Both the position numbers and the translations under genes were made by a program. This document shows positions 18,559-27,428 of a DNA stretch of 43,807 nt, piece by piece. This DNA is from Nitrospirae bacterium CG2_30_70_394 (lineage in GTDB: Bacteria > CG2-30-53-67 > CG2-30-70-394): assembly GCA_001873295.1 (NCBI GenBank), contig MNYW01000092.1, forward strand, positions 1 through 43,807. The letters are read 5' to 3'. The notes beneath the pieces were generated by a model. It had not been told where the DNA came from and ran no database searches. It saw only the letters and a list, made by a program, of their open reading frames with translations. Each line of letters starts with the position of its first letter. The stretch's first letter is position 1.

Positions 18559-19899
18559 TTAGAGGCCGTGCTTCTCTAACCGGTAGTCGAGGGTGTGGCG
18601 GGTGAGGTGGAGGAGGCGGGCGGCGGCGGCCTTGTTGCCGCCGGTGCGGGCGAGGGCCTGGGTGATGAGCTGGCGCTCGACCTCCGCCAGATCCGCGCCA
18701 GCGGGCGGCAGTTGCCACTGGGCAGCGGCGGCGGCAGGCAGGAGGTCGGCCGCGAGCTGCTCCCGGGTCAGCTCTTGGGCCGGGTAGAGGAGCGCCCACC
18801 GTTCACACAGGTTCTTCAGCTCGCGGATGTTCCCGGGCCACGGCGCCTCCTCCAGCAGCCGCACCGCGGCCGCGGAGAGGGTGGCCAGTTCCCGGCCGTG
18901 GCGCTGGGCGGCTTGCTGGAGAAACTCCGCGGCGAGGCGAGCGAGATCGGCGCGCCGTTCGCGCAGCGGCGGCATGGCCAGGGTGATGACCGCGAGGCGG
19001 TAGTAGAGGTCGTTGCGAAAGCGGCCGCTGGCCATCATCGCTCGCAGGTCTTGGTGGGTGGCCGCGATCACCCGGGCGTCGACGCGCACCGGCCGATCCG
19101 CGCCCACCGCCTGCACCTCGCCTCCCTGCAGGAAGCGCAGCAGCTTCACCTGCGCGGCCAGGGGTAGATCGCCGATCTCGTCGAGAAAGAGGGTGCCGCC
19201 GTCGGCGGCCAAGAGGCGGCCGGGGCGGGCGTGGTCGGCGCCGGTGAAGGCGCCCTTCGCGTGGCCGAATAGCTCCGCCTCGACCAGGGTCTCGGGAAGA
19301 GCGCCGCAGTTCACCACCACCCACGGTGCCGCGGCGCGCGGCGAGCGGTCGTGGATCGCCCGCGCGAGGTGCTCCTTGCCGGTGCCGGTCTCGCCGAGGA
19401 TCAGAACGTGGGCGTCGGTGTCGGCGACCGCGAAGGCCTGGGCGTAGATCGCGTTGACCCGCGGCGAGCAGCTCGGGGTGGGCGCGCTGCGAGTGGTGAG
19501 GGCGTCGCGCAACCGCTGGTTGTCGCGCTTGAGCCGTGCCCAGGCAACCGCGCGCTCGACCGTCGCCAGCACGTGCGCCTCGTGAAACGGCTTGGTGATG
19601 AAGTCGAAGGCGCCCGCCTTCATCACCTCCACCGCCCCCTCGACGCTGGCGTAGGCGGTCATCACCACCACCGTCGCCTCTGGATCCTCCGCCAGCACTG
19701 CCGCCAGGACCGCCTGGCCGTCTTGGTGCGGCATGCGCAGATCGGTGAGCAACACCAAGGGCCGCTCTGCGCGGTAACGCTTCACCGCCTCGCGGCCGTC
19801 CGCGGCCTCGCTCACCCGATAGCCCGCGTCCACAAACTGGATGGCGAGGACCTGGCGCACCCCGGGGTCGTCGTCGGCGATGAGGATGAGCGGCGTCAT
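18559..19899 (-). CDS. Sigma-54-dependent response regulator (NtrC family)
   Basis: A 446 residue enhancer-binding protein. I start at ATG 19899 (MTPLILIADDD), where ATGA overlaps the kinase stop; the track's 70 residue extension is a shadow. The receiver domain (1-120) has the acidic pair, phosphoacceptor Asp53 in LLTDLRMP and Lys in FITKPF. The AAA+ domain has GETGTGKEHLARAIH, the sigma-54 contact loop GAFTGA and GGTLFLDEIGDLP. The C-terminal Fis-type helix-turn-helix is GGNKAAAARLLHLTRHTL. It is coupled to the kinase gene, and both are divergent from the lipoprotein operon. That operon has a sigma-54 promoter and paired palindromes, so it is the obvious target. Confidence 0.95.
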   Translation of the reverse strand: MTPLILIADDDPGVRQVLAIQFVDAGYRVSEAADGREAVKRYRAERPLVLLTDLRMPHQDGQAVLAAVLAEDPEATVVVMTAYASVEGAVEVMKAGAFDFITKPFHEAHVLATVERAVAWARLKRDNQRLRDALTTRSAPTPSCSPRVNAIYAQAFAVADTDAHVLILGETGTGKEHLARAIHDRSPRAAAPWVVVNCGALPETLVEAELFGHAKGAFTGADHARPGRLLAADGGTLFLDEIGDLPLAAQVKLLRFLQGGEVQAVGADRPVRVDARVIAATHQDLRAMMASGRFRNDLYYRLAVITLAMPPLRERRADLARLAAEFLQQAAQRHGRELATLSAAAVRLLEEAPWPGNIRELKNLCERWALLYPAQELTREQLAADLLPAAAAAQWQLPPAGADLAEVERQLITQALARTGGNKAAAARLLHLTRHTLDYRLEKHGL

Positions 19900-21056
19900 G
19901 GGGTGGCGCGGGGCAGGGTGAGGACAAAGGTCGTGGTACCCGCGGCGGAGGCGCAACGCAACGTCCCGTGGTGCGCCTCCGCAATCCGCGCCGCGATCGC
20001 CAGGCCGAGCCCGGTCCCCTCGGCGCGGGTGGTAAAGAAGGGATCGAAGACCCGCTCCCGATCGGCGGCGGCGATCGTCTCCCCGCGGTTCTCCACCGCC
20101 AGCTCCCACCCCTCCCCGGTGGTCCGCGACGCGACCTGAATGGTGCTGCCCGGCTCGGCGAACTGGCCGGCGTTGAGGAGCAGGTTGACCAGCACCTGGG
20201 CGAGCTGGTCTCGATCCCCGTCGAGGGTGAGGGCGTCAGAATCCTCGCGCAGCTCCACGCGCAGCCCCTGGGACTCGAGCTGCGGGCGCATCAACAGGAC
20301 GCAGTGGCGGACCACTGCATGCGGATCGAGGGGGCGGATGGCGGGAGTCGCGGGACGGGCGAACTCGAGCACGTGGTGGGTGATCTCCCCCAGGCGGCCG
20401 ATCTCGGACTGGAGGCGATCCAGCAGCGGCGCCACCCGCTCCGGGTGGCTGGTGGCGGAGCGGCGCAGGATGTCCACCGCCCCCTGCATGGTGGTCAAAG
20501 GATTGCGTACCTCGTGGGCGATCCCCGCAGCCATCTGCCCCAGCGCCGCGAGACGCTCGGCGCGGCGCGCAATCGCGTAGCTCCGCGTCGCCTCGGTGAG
20601 GGCCAGATCACGCTGGATCGCGGTTTGCCGGTGGCGCTCCAGCTCGCCGGCCAGGCGGTCGCGCAGCCAGCCGGTGACCCCGCCGACGAGAAAGAGCAGG
20701 ACCATGTCGCTCGCCTGGCTGGCGGTAAACATCCCCGAGTGGAGGTGGGCGCCGTGGCCGCGGTGCGGATAGAGGAGGGCGGCCACCGCCGCGGTGGCGA
20801 TCCCGCCGCGGCTGCCGGACCAGAAGCCGGCGAGGATCACCGGCACGAAGTAGAGCTTCTGGGTGAGGGTCATCCAGAAGGGGGCGCTGGCCAGGTGGAT
20901 GGCGTTGTGGGCGAGCGTGACCCCCACCACCAACAAGGCGATGGTTAGCCAGCGCGCGCGGCGCGCGGAGGCGGGGAGGGGCGGGGTGGCCGCGGGGAGC
21001 GGAGCGCTCCCGCCCGCGGCCGTGGGGCTCCGCTCTTCCGTGGAACCCCCGTTCAT
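19896..21056 (-). CDS. Membrane sensor histidine kinase (NtrB-like)
   Basis: I start at ATG 21056 (MNGGSTEERSP), giving 386 residues; the longer frame would cross the divergent promoter region. About four hydrophobic segments fill residues 35-145 (WLTIALLVVGVTLA, LYFVPVILAGFW, a Gly/Ala-rich helix, DMVLLFLVGGVTGWL). A loop between them, YPHRGHGAHLHSGM, is rich in His and could bind metal. Then come HisKA with GIAHEVRNPLTTMQG and a HATPase with NLLLNAGQFA, FDPFFTT and GTGLGLAIA. It probably phosphorylates the regulator encoded next. The signal is unknown; metal is a guess from the His loop and the target genes. Confidence 0.93.
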   Translation of the reverse strand: MNGGSTEERSPTAAGGSAPLPAATPPLPASARRARWLTIALLVVGVTLAHNAIHLASAPFWMTLTQKLYFVPVILAGFWSGSRGGIATAAVAALLYPHRGHGAHLHSGMFTASQASDMVLLFLVGGVTGWLRDRLAGELERHRQTAIQRDLALTEATRSYAIARRAERLAALGQMAAGIAHEVRNPLTTMQGAVDILRRSATSHPERVAPLLDRLQSEIGRLGEITHHVLEFARPATPAIRPLDPHAVVRHCVLLMRPQLESQGLRVELREDSDALTLDGDRDQLAQVLVNLLLNAGQFAEPGSTIQVASRTTGEGWELAVENRGETIAAADRERVFDPFFTTRAEGTGLGLAIAARIAEAHHGTLRCASAAGTTTFVLTLPRATP

Positions 21057-21074: not shown

Positions 21075-21111
21075 TGCGGCATATGCCGCACTGCCTGCCG
21101 CTTTTGCCGCA
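21075..21111. promoter_or_regulatory. Paired activator sites (TGCGGCA-type palindromes)
   Basis: Site 1 (21075-21090) is the perfect 16 bp palindrome TGCGGCATATGCCGCA. Site 2 (21096-21111), TGCCGCTTTTGCCGCA, matches it at 13 of 16 positions. Centres are 21 bp apart, two helical turns. They lie about 100 bp upstream of the sigma-54 promoter of the lipoprotein operon and 18 bp upstream of the kinase ATG. One regulator bound here could activate the operon and also affect its own genes. Confidence 0.7.
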
Positions 21112-21187: not shown

Positions 21188-21204
21188 CGGCACGCGGGTT
21201 GCAA
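21188..21204 (+). promoter_or_regulatory. Sigma-54 promoter of the lipoprotein operon
   Basis: CGGCACGCGGGTTGCAA matches the consensus TGGCACG-N4-TTGCA with one change (first T to C). GG and GC are exactly ten bases apart. Transcription would begin near 21214, about 60 bases before the ATG at 21273. Confidence 0.72.
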
Positions 21205-21272: not shown

Positions 21273-23102
21273 ATGAATCGCCACCTGTGTCGCCGTGCAA
21301 CGTCGCGGCTGTTATTGCCCGCGGTAGCCCTCGCGTCAACGCTCGCCATGACCGCCGGCTGCGGCAGCAGCAGCGGCAGTGGCGGTACCCCCAGTGGTTC
21401 CACGACCCAGATCACCGGCCAGGCGATCGCCGGGGCGGTGACCGGCACGGTGGTGGTCGCGGATGGCGCCGGGACCACGGTCGCGTCGGCCGCCGTCACC
21501 GCGGGCGGATTCACGGTGAGCGTGGGGGACTCGGCCCTCGATGGGGAGCTCGACTTCGTTGTCACCGGCAGCTACACGGACGAAGTCTCCGGGGAGATGG
21601 TCCAGTTGACCGCCGCCGATCCCCTGGCACTGACCACGGCGGCGGGCCACTTCGTCGCCGGCGCGACCGGCAACGCGCCGATCACCCCCGGGTCTACCGT
21701 CGTGCGCAGGTTGGTCCGGGACCACACCATGACCCTCACCGCCGCGCGCGCCGCCTTCCAGGCCGCGTTCGGCTATGCGCCCGACCTGGACGCGCGGCCG
21801 TTCGATCCCACCGGCACCGCGCCCGCCGCGGCGACCGGCGCCGACGAGGATGAGGCGTTCCGCGCCGGCGTCTTCAGCCAGCTCGCCAGCGACCTCGGCC
21901 TGACCACCGGCGCGGCGATCGCGGCCCTGTTCCGCGGCCTGGCAGACGATCTGGCCGACGGCACCCTCGACGGGCTTGCCGGGGCGGGCCAGCCGGTGAT
22001 GGTCGGCACCGTTGATTTGGCGACACGCCACACGGAGAACGCCCTCTGCGCCCGCCTGCTCACCGCCCACGGCGAGTTTGTAGAGAACACCGCCAACGGT
22101 GGTGGGTTGGCCGCCCCCACCTCTGGTCTGCCGGCGCTGGTCTACGACGGCGCCGGCGCTCGCCGCACGGTCACCACCCCCGGCGGACGGAGGGTGACCG
22201 TCACCCTCAACACCGCGGCCGAGCCGCCGTTCACCGCCGGCTTTTGGACCGCGCGGGTCGCCCACCAGATCACCCTGACGGACGCGGACAACCACGACGC
22301 GCCAATCGACATCACCAGCGACCCGACGATCGTCGACGTGAGCCACCACCCCCTGATGCACATGCTCAGCGGCCACGACCACACCACCCCCCACGCCCAC
22401 GAGCCCGACACCCGCGGCGCGGCCGCGGGCCAGTACGTGCTCGACGCCTACTACGTGATGGCCTCGGAGATGGGGATGGGGGCGATGGCCATGCCCATGG
22501 GAGTGTGGGACTACACAGTGCGGATCGACGAGGACAGCAACCGCGATGGCACGGTGGACACCACCACCGAGGTGATCTTTCACCCGAAGGTGGATCCGCC
22601 GATGGGGGGCGCCGTGCTCTTCGCCCAGGTGAACCACGCCGCCGATACCTGGACCTCCATGGATGGGACGACCGGTCCGCGCCCCTACCGGGTGTGGCTC
22701 CACGAGGTGGTCACCAACGGCGACGGGAGCCACGACCTGACCCTCTTCGTCTCCACCCAGGAGATGGTGGACATGGCGATGGCGGGGATGGACCACCACG
22801 CCGGCATGACCTTCCCGGCGGTCTACCCGGGGTTGACCCTCCACGGTCCGGTGGATGAGATGGGGATGCGCCCGGAGGTCCTGATCGCCACGGTCGCCGT
22901 TGAGGTCTCCACCGACGGCGCGACCTGGGTCGCGTTGGCCGAGGAAGAGCCCTCCAGCGGCCGCTACCAGGTCACCCACCTGGCAGGCCTCGACAATACC
23001 GCCGCCGGTCCGGACACCCTGGCGGTGCGCCTGACGGTGAACGGCCATTCGATGCAGACCGCGGCCGGGGCGGAAAGCCAACTCCTCTTCACCGCGCCGT
23101 AA
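21273..23102 (+). CDS. Large His/Met-rich lipoprotein, first gene of the envelope operon
   Basis: 609 residues starting MNRHLCRR, with a hydrophobic signal ending in a lipobox-like TAGC and a Gly/Ser linker. The region at about 20-200 looks like repeated small beta domains and Ala-rich helices. The second half carries metal-ligand clusters: SHHPLMHMLSGHDHTTPHAH, EMGMGAMAMPMGVWDY and MAMAGMDHHAGM. A DEDSNRDGTVD loop resembles a calcium site. The WTARV...VWDYTVRI layout recalls FixH/CopC-type beta sandwiches, but I do not recognise a family. Copper or another soft metal is a reasonable inference. Its TAA overlaps the next ATG (TAATG). The ribosome site is weak. Confidence 0.85.
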   Translation: MNRHLCRRATSRLLLPAVALASTLAMTAGCGSSSGSGGTPSGSTTQITGQAIAGAVTGTVVVADGAGTTVASAAVTAGGFTVSVGDSALDGELDFVVTGSYTDEVSGEMVQLTAADPLALTTAAGHFVAGATGNAPITPGSTVVRRLVRDHTMTLTAARAAFQAAFGYAPDLDARPFDPTGTAPAAATGADEDEAFRAGVFSQLASDLGLTTGAAIAALFRGLADDLADGTLDGLAGAGQPVMVGTVDLATRHTENALCARLLTAHGEFVENTANGGGLAAPTSGLPALVYDGAGARRTVTTPGGRRVTVTLNTAAEPPFTAGFWTARVAHQITLTDADNHDAPIDITSDPTIVDVSHHPLMHMLSGHDHTTPHAHEPDTRGAAAGQYVLDAYYVMASEMGMGAMAMPMGVWDYTVRIDEDSNRDGTVDTTTEVIFHPKVDPPMGGAVLFAQVNHAADTWTSMDGTTGPRPYRVWLHEVVTNGDGSHDLTLFVSTQEMVDMAMAGMDHHAGMTFPAVYPGLTLHGPVDEMGMRPEVLIATVAVEVSTDGATWVALAEEEPSSGRYQVTHLAGLDNTAAGPDTLAVRLTVNGHSMQTAAGAESQLLFTAP

Positions 23103-24151
23103 TGAGGCCGCCTCTCTTTCGGCTCGGCCGTGTGGATGGCGCGCAGACGCACAATCCAGCTCGGCGCCGGACCGTGGTGCGGCCCCTCCTTCGGCTGGGT
23201 TGCGCCGCCCTGGGGCTCCTTTTCCTTTTCGCCCCCGCCGCGGTCCACGCCGCCTCTTGTTGCGGTGGCGGCTCGGCCGCTGCCCTGGTGTTGCCCAAGT
23301 TCTCTCGGGCGATGGTCGCGGTGAGCCTCGACGCGGAGCACTACGACGGCTTCTGGAACGGCGACGGCTTCTGGCGCCGCGATCCGCCGGAGACCGATCT
23401 CAACCAGTACCGCCTCAACGTCGGCGGCGCCTATCGGTTGGCTTCGCGCTGGCAGGGGTTCGCGGTGCTCCCCTACGTCTGGAACCGCAACGACTACTCC
23501 GGTCTGGCGCGCGACACCGCCGGCCTCGGCGATTCCACGATCGGCGTCTGGTACGAGTCCTTTGACGACATCCGGTGCGTCTGGCGGGTGGGGAGCTGGC
23601 GAGACCTCAAGCCGGCGGTCTACTGGGGGGCGGCGGTCACGGTGCCCACCGGTACCTCGCCCTATGACGAGGTCAGCGACAACTTCGACATCACCGGCCG
23701 CGGCTTCTACCGCCTCGACGGCTCCGTGTTGCTCGACAAGACGATCTATCCCTGGTCCACCTCCGTGCAGCTCACCTATGGCCGCCACTTTGAGCGCGCG
23801 GTGAATCGCGAGTACGGCAACGCCGTGGAGCCGTACGACAAACGTCTCGGCGACCGGGCAAGCGCCACCGCGAGCCTCGGCTACACCTACTTCACCGGCG
23901 CGATGCACTCCCTCACCGGGACGGTCTCCTTCACCGACTTGTGGGAGGATAAGCAGCGGATCGACGGCGACGAGGACCCGACCTCGGGGTTGCGCAAGCG
24001 CGCCCTCGGAGGCGCCCTCGCGTGGGCCGCGCCCGACCGCAACTGGATTGTCAAACTCGCCTACAGCCACGCCCTGCAATACGACGGCTGGGGGCGGAAC
24101 TTTCCTACGACCGACGTCGTCTCGGTGGGGGTCAGCCATGTCTTCCGGTAA
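23102..24151 (+). CDS. Predicted outer-membrane beta-barrel with N-terminal Cys-Cys
   Basis: 349 residues. The signal peptide core LLRLGCAALGLLFLFAPA ends at VHA, so the mature protein begins AASCCGGGSAAALVLPKF. A vicinal Cys pair right after the cleavage site is unusual for a barrel. The rest has alternating Tyr/Trp/Arg strands (LNVGGAYRLASRWQGFAVLP, SVQLTYGRHFERA, ASATASLGYTYFTG) and ends in VGVSHVFR. The final aromatic followed by a basic residue resembles a BAM signal with one extra residue. It resembles barrels annotated as phenol-pathway or transporter-like, but the specificity is unknown. It starts within the stop of the lipoprotein gene. Confidence 0.82.
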   Translation: MRPPLFRLGRVDGAQTHNPARRRTVVRPLLRLGCAALGLLFLFAPAAVHAASCCGGGSAAALVLPKFSRAMVAVSLDAEHYDGFWNGDGFWRRDPPETDLNQYRLNVGGAYRLASRWQGFAVLPYVWNRNDYSGLARDTAGLGDSTIGVWYESFDDIRCVWRVGSWRDLKPAVYWGAAVTVPTGTSPYDEVSDNFDITGRGFYRLDGSVLLDKTIYPWSTSVQLTYGRHFERAVNREYGNAVEPYDKRLGDRASATASLGYTYFTGAMHSLTGTVSFTDLWEDKQRIDGDEDPTSGLRKRALGGALAWAAPDRNWIVKLAYSHALQYDGWGRNFPTTDVVSVGVSHVFR

Positions 24152-24722
24152 GCGCTGGCGGCCGCGGGTCGCCGCCGTGTTGTGTCTCCTCCTCGCGGCC
24201 TGTGGCGGGGTGGGGGATGATCTCGTGCCGACGGACACGGACCAGCGCGCCACCCTCGCCGCCGGCGCGGTGGGCTCCACCCCCGGGGCGACCGCTCTCG
24301 ACTTCCAGGTGCAGGACAGCGCCGACAACACGGTCAGACTCGCGGACTATCTGAGCGATGGCGCCACCCCTGCGGATGCGGTGGTCCTCTACTTCACCAT
24401 GTGGTGTCCGATCTGCCTGAGCCACTCGGACCACCTGCTCACCACGGTGGTCCCGCGCTTCCGCGACCGGGGCCATGTGGTCTACGCCCTGGTGGACTAC
24501 GTCTCCGGGTCGGTGACCCTGGCGCGGGCCGCGGAGCAGGGCAACGGTTACGCCGGCTCGGACTTCGTGGTCCTGGCGGATATCGGCCAGACGCTGTTTG
24601 ACCAGTTCGACGCCGCCATGGGGACAATCGTGGTGATCGACGCGGGCGGGGTGATCCGGCTCAACGAGGACTACCGCACCGGCGCCAACCTGGTGGCCAC
24701 CCTCGACGAGTTGTTGCCATGA
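24138..24722 (+). CDS. Thioredoxin-like lipoprotein with CPIC site
   Basis: 194 residues with lipobox LLAACGG, so probably anchored in the envelope. The fold is thioredoxin or redoxin type: PGATALDFQVQDSADNTVRL, then YFTMWCPICLSHSDHLL with the CxxC as CPIC. The cis-Pro region is not in the usual TP form (FDAAMGTIVVIDAGGVI), so the partner site may differ. TlpA/ResA relatives reduce cytochrome c thiols or copper-site cysteines; here the neighbours are a CX3CH cytochrome and a Cys-Cys barrel. It overlaps the barrel gene by 14 bases and the next gene by ATGA. Confidence 0.87.
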   Translation: MSSGKRWRPRVAAVLCLLLAACGGVGDDLVPTDTDQRATLAAGAVGSTPGATALDFQVQDSADNTVRLADYLSDGATPADAVVLYFTMWCPICLSHSDHLLTTVVPRFRDRGHVVYALVDYVSGSVTLARAAEQGNGYAGSDFVVLADIGQTLFDQFDAAMGTIVVIDAGGVIRLNEDYRTGANLVATLDELLP

Positions 24723-25012
24723 CCTCGATCGCTCGGGCTTGCGCGGCCGTGGTGGCGGCGGTCGTGGTCGGCTGCGCCGCACCCGCGGCGGAGGTGGGCG
24801 AGGGGGAGGTCGCCCGCGGCGCGGAGGTCTTCGCGACCTACTGCACCGACCGCTGCCACCAGACGCCGCGCCCCGACTCCCTCACCGCGAACCAGTGGCG
24901 GGCGGTGGCGCAGACCATGCAGGCGCGCCTTGCGGAGCAGGGACAGGAGCCGATCGCCCCGGCGGACTACGCCGCGTTGCTTGCCTACCTGACCACCCAC
25001 GCCCGCGAGTAG
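24719..25012 (+). CDS. Small cytochrome c-like lipoprotein with CX3CH motif
   Basis: 97 residues with lipobox VVVGC and a single heme site, YCTDRCHQTPRPDSLT. Here three residues, not two, separate the cysteines (CX3CH). A conserved-looking NQWRAVAQTMQ and the C-terminal ADYAALLAYL resemble small cytochromes. CX3CH sites are known but uncommon; attachment by the ordinary Ccm system is not certain. ATGA overlap with the redoxin gene implies co-translation. It could pass electrons to or from the CPIC protein. It ends the operon; no hairpin terminator was recognised. Confidence 0.83.
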   Translation: MTSIARACAAVVAAVVVGCAAPAAEVGEGEVARGAEVFATYCTDRCHQTPRPDSLTANQWRAVAQTMQARLAEQGQEPIAPADYAALLAYLTTHARE

Positions 25013-25469: not shown

Positions 25470-27428
25470 ATGAGCAGACCACGCCCTGATATGGAGGGGG
25501 ACGGTACGCGCCCCCCTCGCCATCCGGCACAGCTCCGGCTGGCTTCACCCCCCGTGGATGGCGAACTCTCGCCCACCCGTAGACCCTCCGGCGCGTCCCG
25601 CTCCAGAGGGTCTACGGGGGACCATCCCCTCACCGCCACCGCGGATCCGCCCGACAACCGCGACTGGCTCTACCGGCCGCCGCCGGTGCAGCTCAAGACC
25701 GTGATGGCCAAGCCGCGCGGGCTGAAGATCCTCGACCAGGGGACCGAGGGGGCGTGCACCGGCTTCGGCCTTGCCGCGGTGATCAACCTGCTGAATCAGC
25801 GGCGTGGTGCGGCAGTACGGGTGAGCCCGCGCATGCTCTACGAGATGGCGCGCAAGCACGACGAGTGGCCAGGCGAGGCGTACGCCGGCTCGTCATGTCG
25901 CGGGGCGATCAAGGGGTTCGCGCAGATGGGGGTGTGTCGCGACAGCTACTGGCCGTATCGGGACGATCGTCCCGGGGGGCTGACCGTGAAGGCGGCGCGG
26001 GATGCGCGCGCCAACACCATCGGCGCCTACTACCGCCTTGAACATCGGGTGAGCGACTTCCACGCCGCCCTCAACGAGGCCGGGGCGATCTTCTGCTCGG
26101 CCGACGTGCACGATGGCTGGGAGTCGCCGGCGGCGAAGAGTGGCGTCATCCCCCTGCGCTCGACGGTGACCGGTGGCCACGCCTTTGCGATCATCGGCTA
26201 CAACCGCGAGGGGTTTTGGGTGCAGAACTCGTGGGGTCGCACCTGGGGCCAAGGGGGGCTGGCCCTGTGGAGCTACGAGGACTGGCACGCGCACCTCACC
26301 GACGCCTGGGTTCTCAGCCTCGCGTTACCCACGCCACAGATCTGGTGTTTGGGCGAGGCGGAGCGCGCCTCCACGCGCGGTGGCGCCAGCAACACCGGGC
26401 GCGCACCGGCGCGCGGCCAGATCGCCGGCCACTTCATCCACATGGACGACGGCCAGTTCCACGACGCCGGTGACTACTGGAGCAACCTCGCGGACGTGCA
26501 GGCAACCGCGGCCAACCTGGCGGCCAGCACCAAATACGACCACCTGCTGATCTACGCCCACGGCGGCCTCAACAGCCCGAAGGACTCGGCGCGGCGGATC
26601 GCCGCCATGCGCGACGTGTTCAAGGACAATCGCGTCTATCCCCTGCACGTCATGTACGACACCGGGATTTTGGAGGAGATCAAGGACATCGTGGTGGCGC
26701 GCGGCGAGCAGACCGGGGCGCGGGCCGGCGGGGTGAGCGATTGGTGGGACCGGGTGCTGGAGCGGATGACGCGGCGGCTGGGGAGGGCGTTGTGGCGCGA
26801 GATGAAGCTCGGCGCGTGCCGGGGGTTCGAGCACAACAACGCGGGGGTCCAGACCCTGCGCACCTTTGCCCAAGCCCTGCGGGCGGGTGGTGGACTGAAG
26901 CTCAAGGTCCACCTCGCCGGCCATAGCACCGGCGGTATCCTGCTCGCCCACCTGCTCAACGCCCTGGAATCGATCGCCCCGCGCCTGCGCCTATCGACCG
27001 TCAGCCTGCTGGCCCCCGCCGCCTCGGTGGCGCTCTTCAAGAGCCACTACTACCCGCTGCTGGGGGCGACGCGAACGGCGTTCGGCATCGATCAGATGAC
27101 CGTCTACAACATCAGCGACGCGCTGGAGCAAGACGACACCGTCGGGCCGTACGGCAAGTCTCTCCTCTACCTGGTATCGCGCGCCTTTGAAGAGGAGACG
27201 CCCCTGCCGTTGCTCGGGATGCAGCGCTACGCCGAGCCCCTTGCGGCCGAGTGCAATGGCCGCGTCGAGTGGGTGGTCAGCCACGGGCGAGCGAAGCAGG
27301 AGGGGCGCAGCATGAGCACCACGCACGGCGGCTTCGACAACAACCCGGCGACCCTGAACGACATCCTGCGGCGGGTGGTCGGCAAGGAGCCAAAGCGGCT
27401 GTTCACCCCCAACGATCTGAACTACTGA
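25470..27428 (+). CDS. Papain-like cysteine peptidase fused to an alpha/beta hydrolase
   Basis: 652 residues from ATG 25470, with AGGAGA nine bases upstream. Residues 1-60 are Arg/Pro-rich without pattern. Residues 70-290 form a C1A papain fold: nucleophile Cys96 in QGTEGACTGFGLA, His237 in GGHAFAIIGYN and Asn253 in VQNSWGRTWGQGG. Residues about 350-600 form an alpha/beta hydrolase: YAHGGLNSPKDSA resembles the oxyanion region, and Ser486 is in GHSTGG, the nucleophile elbow. No signal peptide is seen. The next gene, a GH108 muramidase, follows by 11 bp. The combination suggests a multi-enzyme effector or lytic cassette; the substrate is unknown. The N-terminal 60 residues may be a wrong extension. 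Confidence 0.87.
   Translation: MSRPRPDMEGDGTRPPRHPAQLRLASPPVDGELSPTRRPSGASRSRGSTGDHPLTATADPPDNRDWLYRPPPVQLKTVMAKPRGLKILDQGTEGACTGFGLAAVINLLNQRRGAAVRVSPRMLYEMARKHDEWPGEAYAGSSCRGAIKGFAQMGVCRDSYWPYRDDRPGGLTVKAARDARANTIGAYYRLEHRVSDFHAALNEAGAIFCSADVHDGWESPAAKSGVIPLRSTVTGGHAFAIIGYNREGFWVQNSWGRTWGQGGLALWSYEDWHAHLTDAWVLSLALPTPQIWCLGEAERASTRGGASNTGRAPARGQIAGHFIHMDDGQFHDAGDYWSNLADVQATAANLAASTKYDHLLIYAHGGLNSPKDSARRIAAMRDVFKDNRVYPLHVMYDTGILEEIKDIVVARGEQTGARAGGVSDWWDRVLERMTRRLGRALWREMKLGACRGFEHNNAGVQTLRTFAQALRAGGGLKLKVHLAGHSTGGILLAHLLNALESIAPRLRLSTVSLLAPAASVALFKSHYYPLLGATRTAFGIDQMTVYNISDALEQDDTVGPYGKSLLYLVSRAFEEETPLPLLGMQRYAEPLAAECNGRVEWVVSHGRAKQEGRSMSTTHGGFDNNPATLNDILRRVVGKEPKRLFTPNDLNY
25576..25618. 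promoter_or_regulatory. Perfect 13 bp inverted repeat inside the early coding region
   Basis: CCCGTAGACCCTC (25576-25588) pairs perfectly with GAGGGTCTACGGG (25606-25618) across a 17 base loop. It falls about 35-50 codons after the predicted start of the peptidase-hydrolase gene, in the part without domain similarity. It may be an RNA hairpin in a leader, an operator or a small insertion. Confidence 0.6.

Follow-up and report, generated by a model that had tools for sequence, protein, structure and literature searches.

For copper, the only established routes across the outer membrane are, to our knowledge, a small number of TonB-dependent receptors and porins. In the present work, we analyzed a stretch of 43,807 nucleotides (hereafter, the window; contig MNYW01000092.1 of assembly GCA_001873295.1, Nitrospirae bacterium CG2_30_70_394), in which four adjoining genes at 21273–25012 encode a lipoprotein, an outer-membrane barrel, a thioredoxin-fold lipoprotein and a small cytochrome. 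According to our analysis, these genes probably constitute an undescribed copper-handling module; no description of it was found in the literature searched (subscription papers were mostly outside that search). The first-pass annotation of this DNA had called the set unfamiliar, which holds for the set as a whole but not for each of its components, as the YtkA-like domain, the thioredoxin fold and the FapF-type barrel fold are known.

The outer-membrane copper role that we propose for the module is one it would have in common with OprC, NosA, PcoB/CopB and CusC (PMC7558416). The window barrel matched no Pfam family at E up to 1 and none in NCBIfam, and therefore it is not recognized as a member of any of these families. 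MbnP/MbnH, whose neighbor in Bacteroidota is a distant barrel homologue with the motif CDxCGC, shares the lipoprotein–heme–barrel layout with the module, but the putative copper lipoprotein of the window is YtkA-like rather than MbnP, and its heme protein is a small monoheme one and not a di-heme MauG-like enzyme, so that no tryptophan modification is implied; in profile searches, the window proteins matched neither MbnP nor MbnH. In the CtaK–Sco–TlpA system, the YtkA protein CtaK helps CuA assembly (PMC13344008), and TlpA reduces the cysteines of Sco and CuA (PMC9145763). The combination of a YtkA-like lipoprotein with a TlpA-fold thioredoxin, including the conserved Met/His and CxxC, is found in the module as well, whereas the module is joined to an outer-membrane barrel, has no Sco in its core and occurs independently of oxidases. 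The Cys/Pro leader open reading frames (ORFs) of copper operons headed by CruR or CutF (TonB-dependent BfrG; CutO) also head several relatives of the module; in contrast to these operons, the outer-membrane part of the module is not TonB-dependent, and the window operon is preceded by a sigma-54-type promoter instead of a leader ORF. Finally, the predicted barrel fold is shared with FapF and the COG4313 channels, from which the window barrel differs in sequence (17% identity) and in its N-terminal Cys-Cys-Gly-Gly-Gly segment; no fap genes are named among the flanking Pfam families, for which only the 25 most frequent were tabulated and no search was aimed at fap genes.

Organization and conservation of the four genes

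All four genes lie head to tail on the plus strand. The lipoprotein gene comes first (21273..23102; 609 amino acids, lipobox LAMTAGC at C30) and is followed by the genes for the barrel (23102..24151; 349 amino acids, a signal peptide and then SCCGGG), the thioredoxin-fold lipoprotein (24138..24722; 194 amino acids, lipobox LLLAAC at C22, WCPIC) and the small cytochrome (24719..25012; 97 amino acids, heme motif CTDRCH, VVVGC lipobox). The junctions and motifs described in the first-pass annotation were read directly in the sequence: the stop of the lipoprotein gene is shared with the barrel start at 23102 (TAATG); the thioredoxin ATG lies 14 bases before the barrel end (overlap 24138..24151, plus strand), where a GGGGT ribosome-binding-like stretch falls inside Gly-Val codons of the barrel; and the thioredoxin and cytochrome genes overlap in ATGA (24719..24722, plus strand). 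That three of the products are lipoproteins is true of the window but not as a general rule, since in most relatives the cytochrome carries an ordinary signal peptide.

When 386 genomes were searched with the barrel as the sole query, strong homologues (45–56% identity) turned up in unrelated phyla, and none in the same-genus genome or in the six same-class genomes. In a second scan, of GTDB species genomes with the barrel alignment, 104 relatives were found and 80 kept. They belong to the Gamma- and Zetaproteobacteria, Thermodesulfobacteriota (Geobacteraceae), Nitrospirota, Nitrospinota, Spirochaetota, Myxococcota and Acidobacteriota; most of the related loci come from metagenome-assembled genomes, and gene calls in the relatives are mechanical. 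Although the barrel alone was the query, the same neighbors surround its homologues: the lipoprotein is present in 81 loci, the thioredoxin in 83 of the 84 distinct loci having a complete barrel end, and the small cytochrome, always with a 4-base overlap, in 39 distinct loci, which is roughly half of all. Among 23 genomes of Nitrospinota, the barrel, the thioredoxin and the lipoprotein occur in exactly the same 11 (Fisher p 7e-7). Co-occurrence, which had been named as a check on the first-pass annotation, was thus observed, with homologues keeping a fixed order across phyla. In the barrel tree, the window barrel falls in no supported clade. Judged from sequence, the four genes are a conserved outer-membrane set that occurs next to copper genes in numerous phyla of bacteria.

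The junctions are conserved along with the genes. The 14-base overlap is kept in 80 of 82 related loci (78 with ATG and 2 with GTG; the remaining two are at −11), whereas of the 559 other same-strand gene pairs in these loci only 3 have it. An embedded ATG requires the overlapped His/Tyr codon to end in T, and this codon is CAT or TAT in 78/78 ATG loci; the T-ending share of the other His/Tyr codons in these barrels is 55%, and in the GC-rich window barrel it is 5/24 (1 CAT vs 6 CAC). The ATGA overlap is present in 40/40 loci carrying this cytochrome type. Relatedness among the loci inflates these statistics; nevertheless, the pattern spans phyla. The recurrence of these overlaps, the 14-base one being so rare in other pairs, indicates that the barrel/thioredoxin and thioredoxin/cytochrome overlaps are not due to chance and are under selection. 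Together with the codon pattern, their conservation across phyla makes translational coupling of the genes likely, and the conserved overlaps make plausible the earlier suggestion that the products are made in a fixed ratio.

In the window, the next gene downstream (25473–27425) codes for a protein whose N-terminal domain is of the papain family (Peptidase_C1); the gene lies about 450 bases away and is outside the module in the relatives.

Predicted products and candidate ligands

The lipoprotein is predicted to be anchored in the outer membrane. Its C-terminal half (approximately residues 296–609) is YtkA-like, and its N-terminal carboxypeptidase-regulatory-like/helical domain (approximately residues 44–280) is missing from short orthologues. 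M362, M364, H370 and M396 (Met-X-Met, His, Met) are invariant across the orthologues and represent candidate copper ligands; M409 and M444 are conserved at about 90%. Conservation of the His/Met clusters, the second check named in the first-pass annotation, thus came out in its favor for this core, whereas the HDHTTPHAH stretch is not conserved. PF13115 (YtkA) matches 14 of 40 orthologues (best 4.9e-6), and a short YtkA version standing beside a distant barrel at locus L022 passes the cut-off (38.2 vs 25.9 bits). For the window lipoprotein, no Pfam or NCBIfam family reached its cut-off, and a PDB sequence search gave no family. The structural model (mean predicted local distance difference test score, pLDDT, 88.5) comprises a beta/helical domain at the N-terminus, along with several beta domains of the Ig-like type, and a Foldseek search with the complete lipoprotein gave nothing beyond partial, arrestin/Ig-like matches. 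The best VIA-align match of the model (residues 45–415) was the non-heme domain of PgcA from Geobacter (crystal structure 9i0d), with Z 11.0, a root-mean-square deviation of 3.6 and 157 aligned residues spanning both lipoprotein halves, which we regard as a lead only; the two proteins may share a surface-lipoprotein domain.

The barrel was modeled with about 12 strands (mean pLDDT 86.4), the 12-strand fold being that of the FapF and COG4313 channels: the best Foldseek matches were FapF (5o67, 1.3e-17) and a COG4313 channel (4rl8, 5e-13), and FapF was also the best PDB sequence match, at an E of only 0.07. The first 59 residues are disordered in the model, including SCCGGG, the N-terminus of the mature protein; general barrel topology suggests an orientation in which this Cys pair would be periplasmic. 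No PcoB/CopB, TonB-dependent transporter or OEP (CusC) family was found among six members of the barrel group A1, and PADLOC gave no family for the window barrel or lipoprotein.

The product of 24138–24722 is predicted to be a TlpA/ResA-like thioredoxin-fold lipoprotein: it matches PF00578 (AhpC-TSA) with 35.6 bits (cut-off 26), its profile matches ResA, and MWCPxCxxH is invariant among the orthologues. The product of 24719–25012 falls below all Pfam and NCBIfam cut-offs and appears to be a small monoheme c-type cytochrome with predicted heme attachment. In its family, two forms of the heme motif share one alignment column, with CX2CH at 29 distinct loci and CX3CH at 10; the window cytochrome has CX3CH instead of the canonical CX2CH and shares it with nine other distinct orthologues. 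Heme sites with one additional residue form a known class of variants, which surveys have counted (PMC10734462). M67 is invariant in the alignment and is likely the axial heme ligand. The barrels nearest to that of the window by tree path sit in loci with a CX3CH cytochrome. About half of the loci, including those with NosL, have no cytochrome, and it is therefore an adaptable and not an essential part of the module.

Copper families near the module and its regulation

The metal role suggested for the set in the first-pass annotation was supported, and the neighboring families allowed it to be narrowed to copper. In 17 loci, a gene for NosL, a Cu(I) chaperone (PMC7558416), lies no more than 1.9 kb from the barrel start, and in 16 of these it directly follows the thioredoxin gene. 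Csp1-type copper storage proteins are found near the barrel in six loci; the one tested is above the NCBIfam cut-off and matches a solved Csp1 at 2.8e-18. At L025, a distant barrel stands beside MbnP (PF20243, 2.6e-47) and MbnH, and in a class sample of 119 genomes, MbnP and/or MbnH lie within 1.5 kb of 15 of the 19 Bacteroidota barrels inspected (L107–L125).

CruR-type leader ORFs head three loci (L019–L021), with a spacing of 42–45 residues between CxxC and RAPP/RGPP; the one tested passes the DUF2946 cut-off. CruR is a DUF2946 protein with a CxxC–RAPP spacing of 45, and copper switches its operon off (PMC9426467). In three Zetaproteobacteria loci (L026, L034, L096), exactly 50 residues separate a CRIEC/CKIEC motif from the PPP that comes after it; Cys-rich, Pro-tailed ORFs of this kind have the anatomy of CutF-like copper sensors (PMC9973294).

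Several side observations were made in these surroundings. Cys-rich ORFs with Pro-rich C-termini (SPPP, PPDPPP) lie upstream of the module at L026:6435-6995, L034:6713-7075 and L096:6522-7004, with further such ORFs at L105:2725-3306 and L077:6591-7175; they look like additional CutF/CruR-type copper-sensing leaders, and the two tested, those of L026 and L105, had no Pfam match. At L077:10468-14459, as at similar loci of Geobacteraceae, the genes after NosL are FtrD-like, FtsX-like and ABC-transporter genes, an arrangement that resembles metal-transport clusters. The protein upstream at L022 is NosL-like by eye and reached no Pfam or NCBIfam family. The Bacteroidota barrel family with N-terminal CDxCGC is a candidate outer-membrane partner of MbnP/MbnH. 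About seven gammaproteobacterial loci (L044:834-7129, L055:568-7161, L041:487-7007 and L048:334-2652) have redox genes before the module, for a NapH-like polyferredoxin with a heme-binding part, a 272-residue multiheme cytochrome and an NHL-repeat/multiheme protein. The genome of the window (L130, G000:C161) and that of a congener (L131, G001:C164) both carry an apparent nos operon with genes for an Rrf2-type regulator, a diheme cytochrome, a NosZ of 609 residues and a large NosR/NosD-like protein.

A sigma-54-type promoter (CGGCACG-CGGG-TTGCA; 21188..21203, plus strand) is located 70 bases before the lipoprotein ATG. The pattern GGCACG-N4-TTGCW at 21189-21203 is the sole match in the window (0.08 expected), and similar sites were found ahead of the lipoprotein gene in 8 of 74 loci, in comparison to 7 of 480 control genes (p about 2e-4). 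A perfect 14-base palindrome, GCGGCATATGCCGC (21076..21089), is a candidate enhancer site for an NtrC-type regulator. The promoter and the palindrome lie between the lipoprotein ATG and that of a divergent sensor histidine kinase with an AtoS/ZraS-like kinase core (19896..21056, minus strand; start assigned from sequence), which is joined by ATGA to an NtrC-family response regulator with a GAFTGA loop (18559..19899, minus strand). A −24/−12-type promoter and a sigma-54 activator are both near the window operon. Because of the promoter site, the palindrome, the divergent NtrC-family pair and the enrichment before the lipoprotein, sigma-54 control can be inferred with good reason for the window operon and for some gammaproteobacteria. 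No credible CxxC/RAPP leader ORF was found ahead of the window operon; a Cys/Pro ORF of 137 residues was rejected as a leader, as it is antisense to the kinase region.

Proposed function and significance

The metal handled is most likely copper, an assignment well supported by association. We lean toward the view that the genes form one transcription/translation unit building an outer-membrane copper-handling module for redox-assisted copper acquisition and relay. In the proposed mechanism, the barrel would form a channel of the FapF type and would contact copper through its N-terminal Cys-Cys segment, on the periplasmic side, and the thioredoxin lipoprotein (CPxCxxH) would hold the barrel thiols, and copper, reduced. 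The YtkA-like lipoprotein would then take Cu(I) at its Met-X-Met/His/Met site and hand it to periplasmic clients or stores (NosL and Csp1 in relatives), while the small cytochrome would link this redox chemistry with the pool of electrons in the periplasm. Two steps named in the first-pass annotation, reduction and outer-membrane passage, are suggested by the thioredoxin together with the heme and the fold of the barrel; its alternative of extracellular redox gained no specific support. In our view, acquisition and relay of copper in short supply are a likelier role than detoxification because of the CruR-type copper repression, the presence of NosL and Csp1 as putative recipients and the parallel with MbnP/CorA; CorA/CorB are downregulated by copper (PMC3621798).

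Several observations weigh against redox-assisted acquisition. The window itself has no NosL, Csp1, MbnP/MbnH or CruR-like neighbor, and NosL (PF05573) was not found in its whole genome; copper is therefore assigned by homology and association. Furthermore, the window lipoprotein is below the Pfam threshold for YtkA (PF13115), and the modeled barrel fold resembles FapF, a polypeptide exporter. The invariance of SCCGG is partly a selection effect, since the search patterns included this stretch. NikR and CbiM adjoin the module at one locus (L081). In addition, the CutF-like leaders would fit either direction of copper movement, since leaders of this kind are also found at the head of operons for copper detoxification (PMC9973294).

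Detoxification is the main rival, as Csp1 and the CutF-like leaders fit it too, although we regard it as rather unlikely. The module would in this case sense or oxidize excess periplasmic copper and export or sequester it at the outer membrane, like Pco/Cop or Cus; Csp1 stores copper and is copper-upregulated in methanotrophs (PMC7558416), CutF-like leaders stand in front of detoxification operons (PMC9973294), and a ZraSR-like two-component pair adjoins the window operon. However, the 25 commonest Pfam families of the flanking genes include no copper ATPase, resistance-nodulation-division pump or multicopper oxidase, and the leaders heading three of the loci are of the CruR type, that is, copper-off switches.

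It seems improbable that the module serves to assemble one particular cuproenzyme (the CuA of cytochrome oxidase or that of nitrous oxide reductase), the barrel being an accessory. CtaK/YtkA, TlpA and NosL are assembly factors of this kind (PMC13344008, PMC9145763, PMC7558416), and the genome of the window encodes heme-copper oxidases and the apparent nos operon; yet the congener, which has neither barrel nor lipoprotein, keeps the same oxidase set and nos operon, and the module is therefore not needed for either. We give just as little credence to another metal or none, with extracellular electron transfer or iron/nickel handling as the function and the small cytochrome as the business end. 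Many hosts are iron oxidizers or reducers (Mariprofundus, Ghiorsea, Geobacter), multiheme cytochromes are encoded upstream in 7–9 gammaproteobacterial loci, and the PgcA non-heme domain match and the NikR and CbiM genes of L081 point the same way. Against this, the cytochrome is missing from about half of the loci while the lipoprotein, the barrel and the thioredoxin persist, and four copper-protein families recur, whereas nickel/cobalt genes occur once; nickel/cobalt specificity, which L081 had prompted us to consider, was rejected, as these genes were found at no other locus.

In its boldest form, which we put forward only tentatively, the acquisition reading would make the module a new outer-membrane copper conduit: a non-TonB barrel with an N-terminal Cys-Cys gate, redox-controlled by a dedicated thioredoxin lipoprotein and cytochrome, would pass Cu(I) to the YtkA-like lipoprotein, and one superfamily would serve YtkA-type and MbnP-type copper systems in many phyla. 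The small cytochrome family, for its part, provides a natural series in which the heme site is either CX2CH or CX3CH. Through the module, the copper families MbnP/MbnH and YtkA/NosL/Csp1 become linked to one barrel superfamily that has no Pfam model, with the barrel as the common element. With its barrel, ligand-bearing lipoprotein and redox partners, the module is a defined and widespread candidate for copper passage across the outer membrane, in hosts that include iron oxidizers and reducers, Nitrospinota and spirochaetes.

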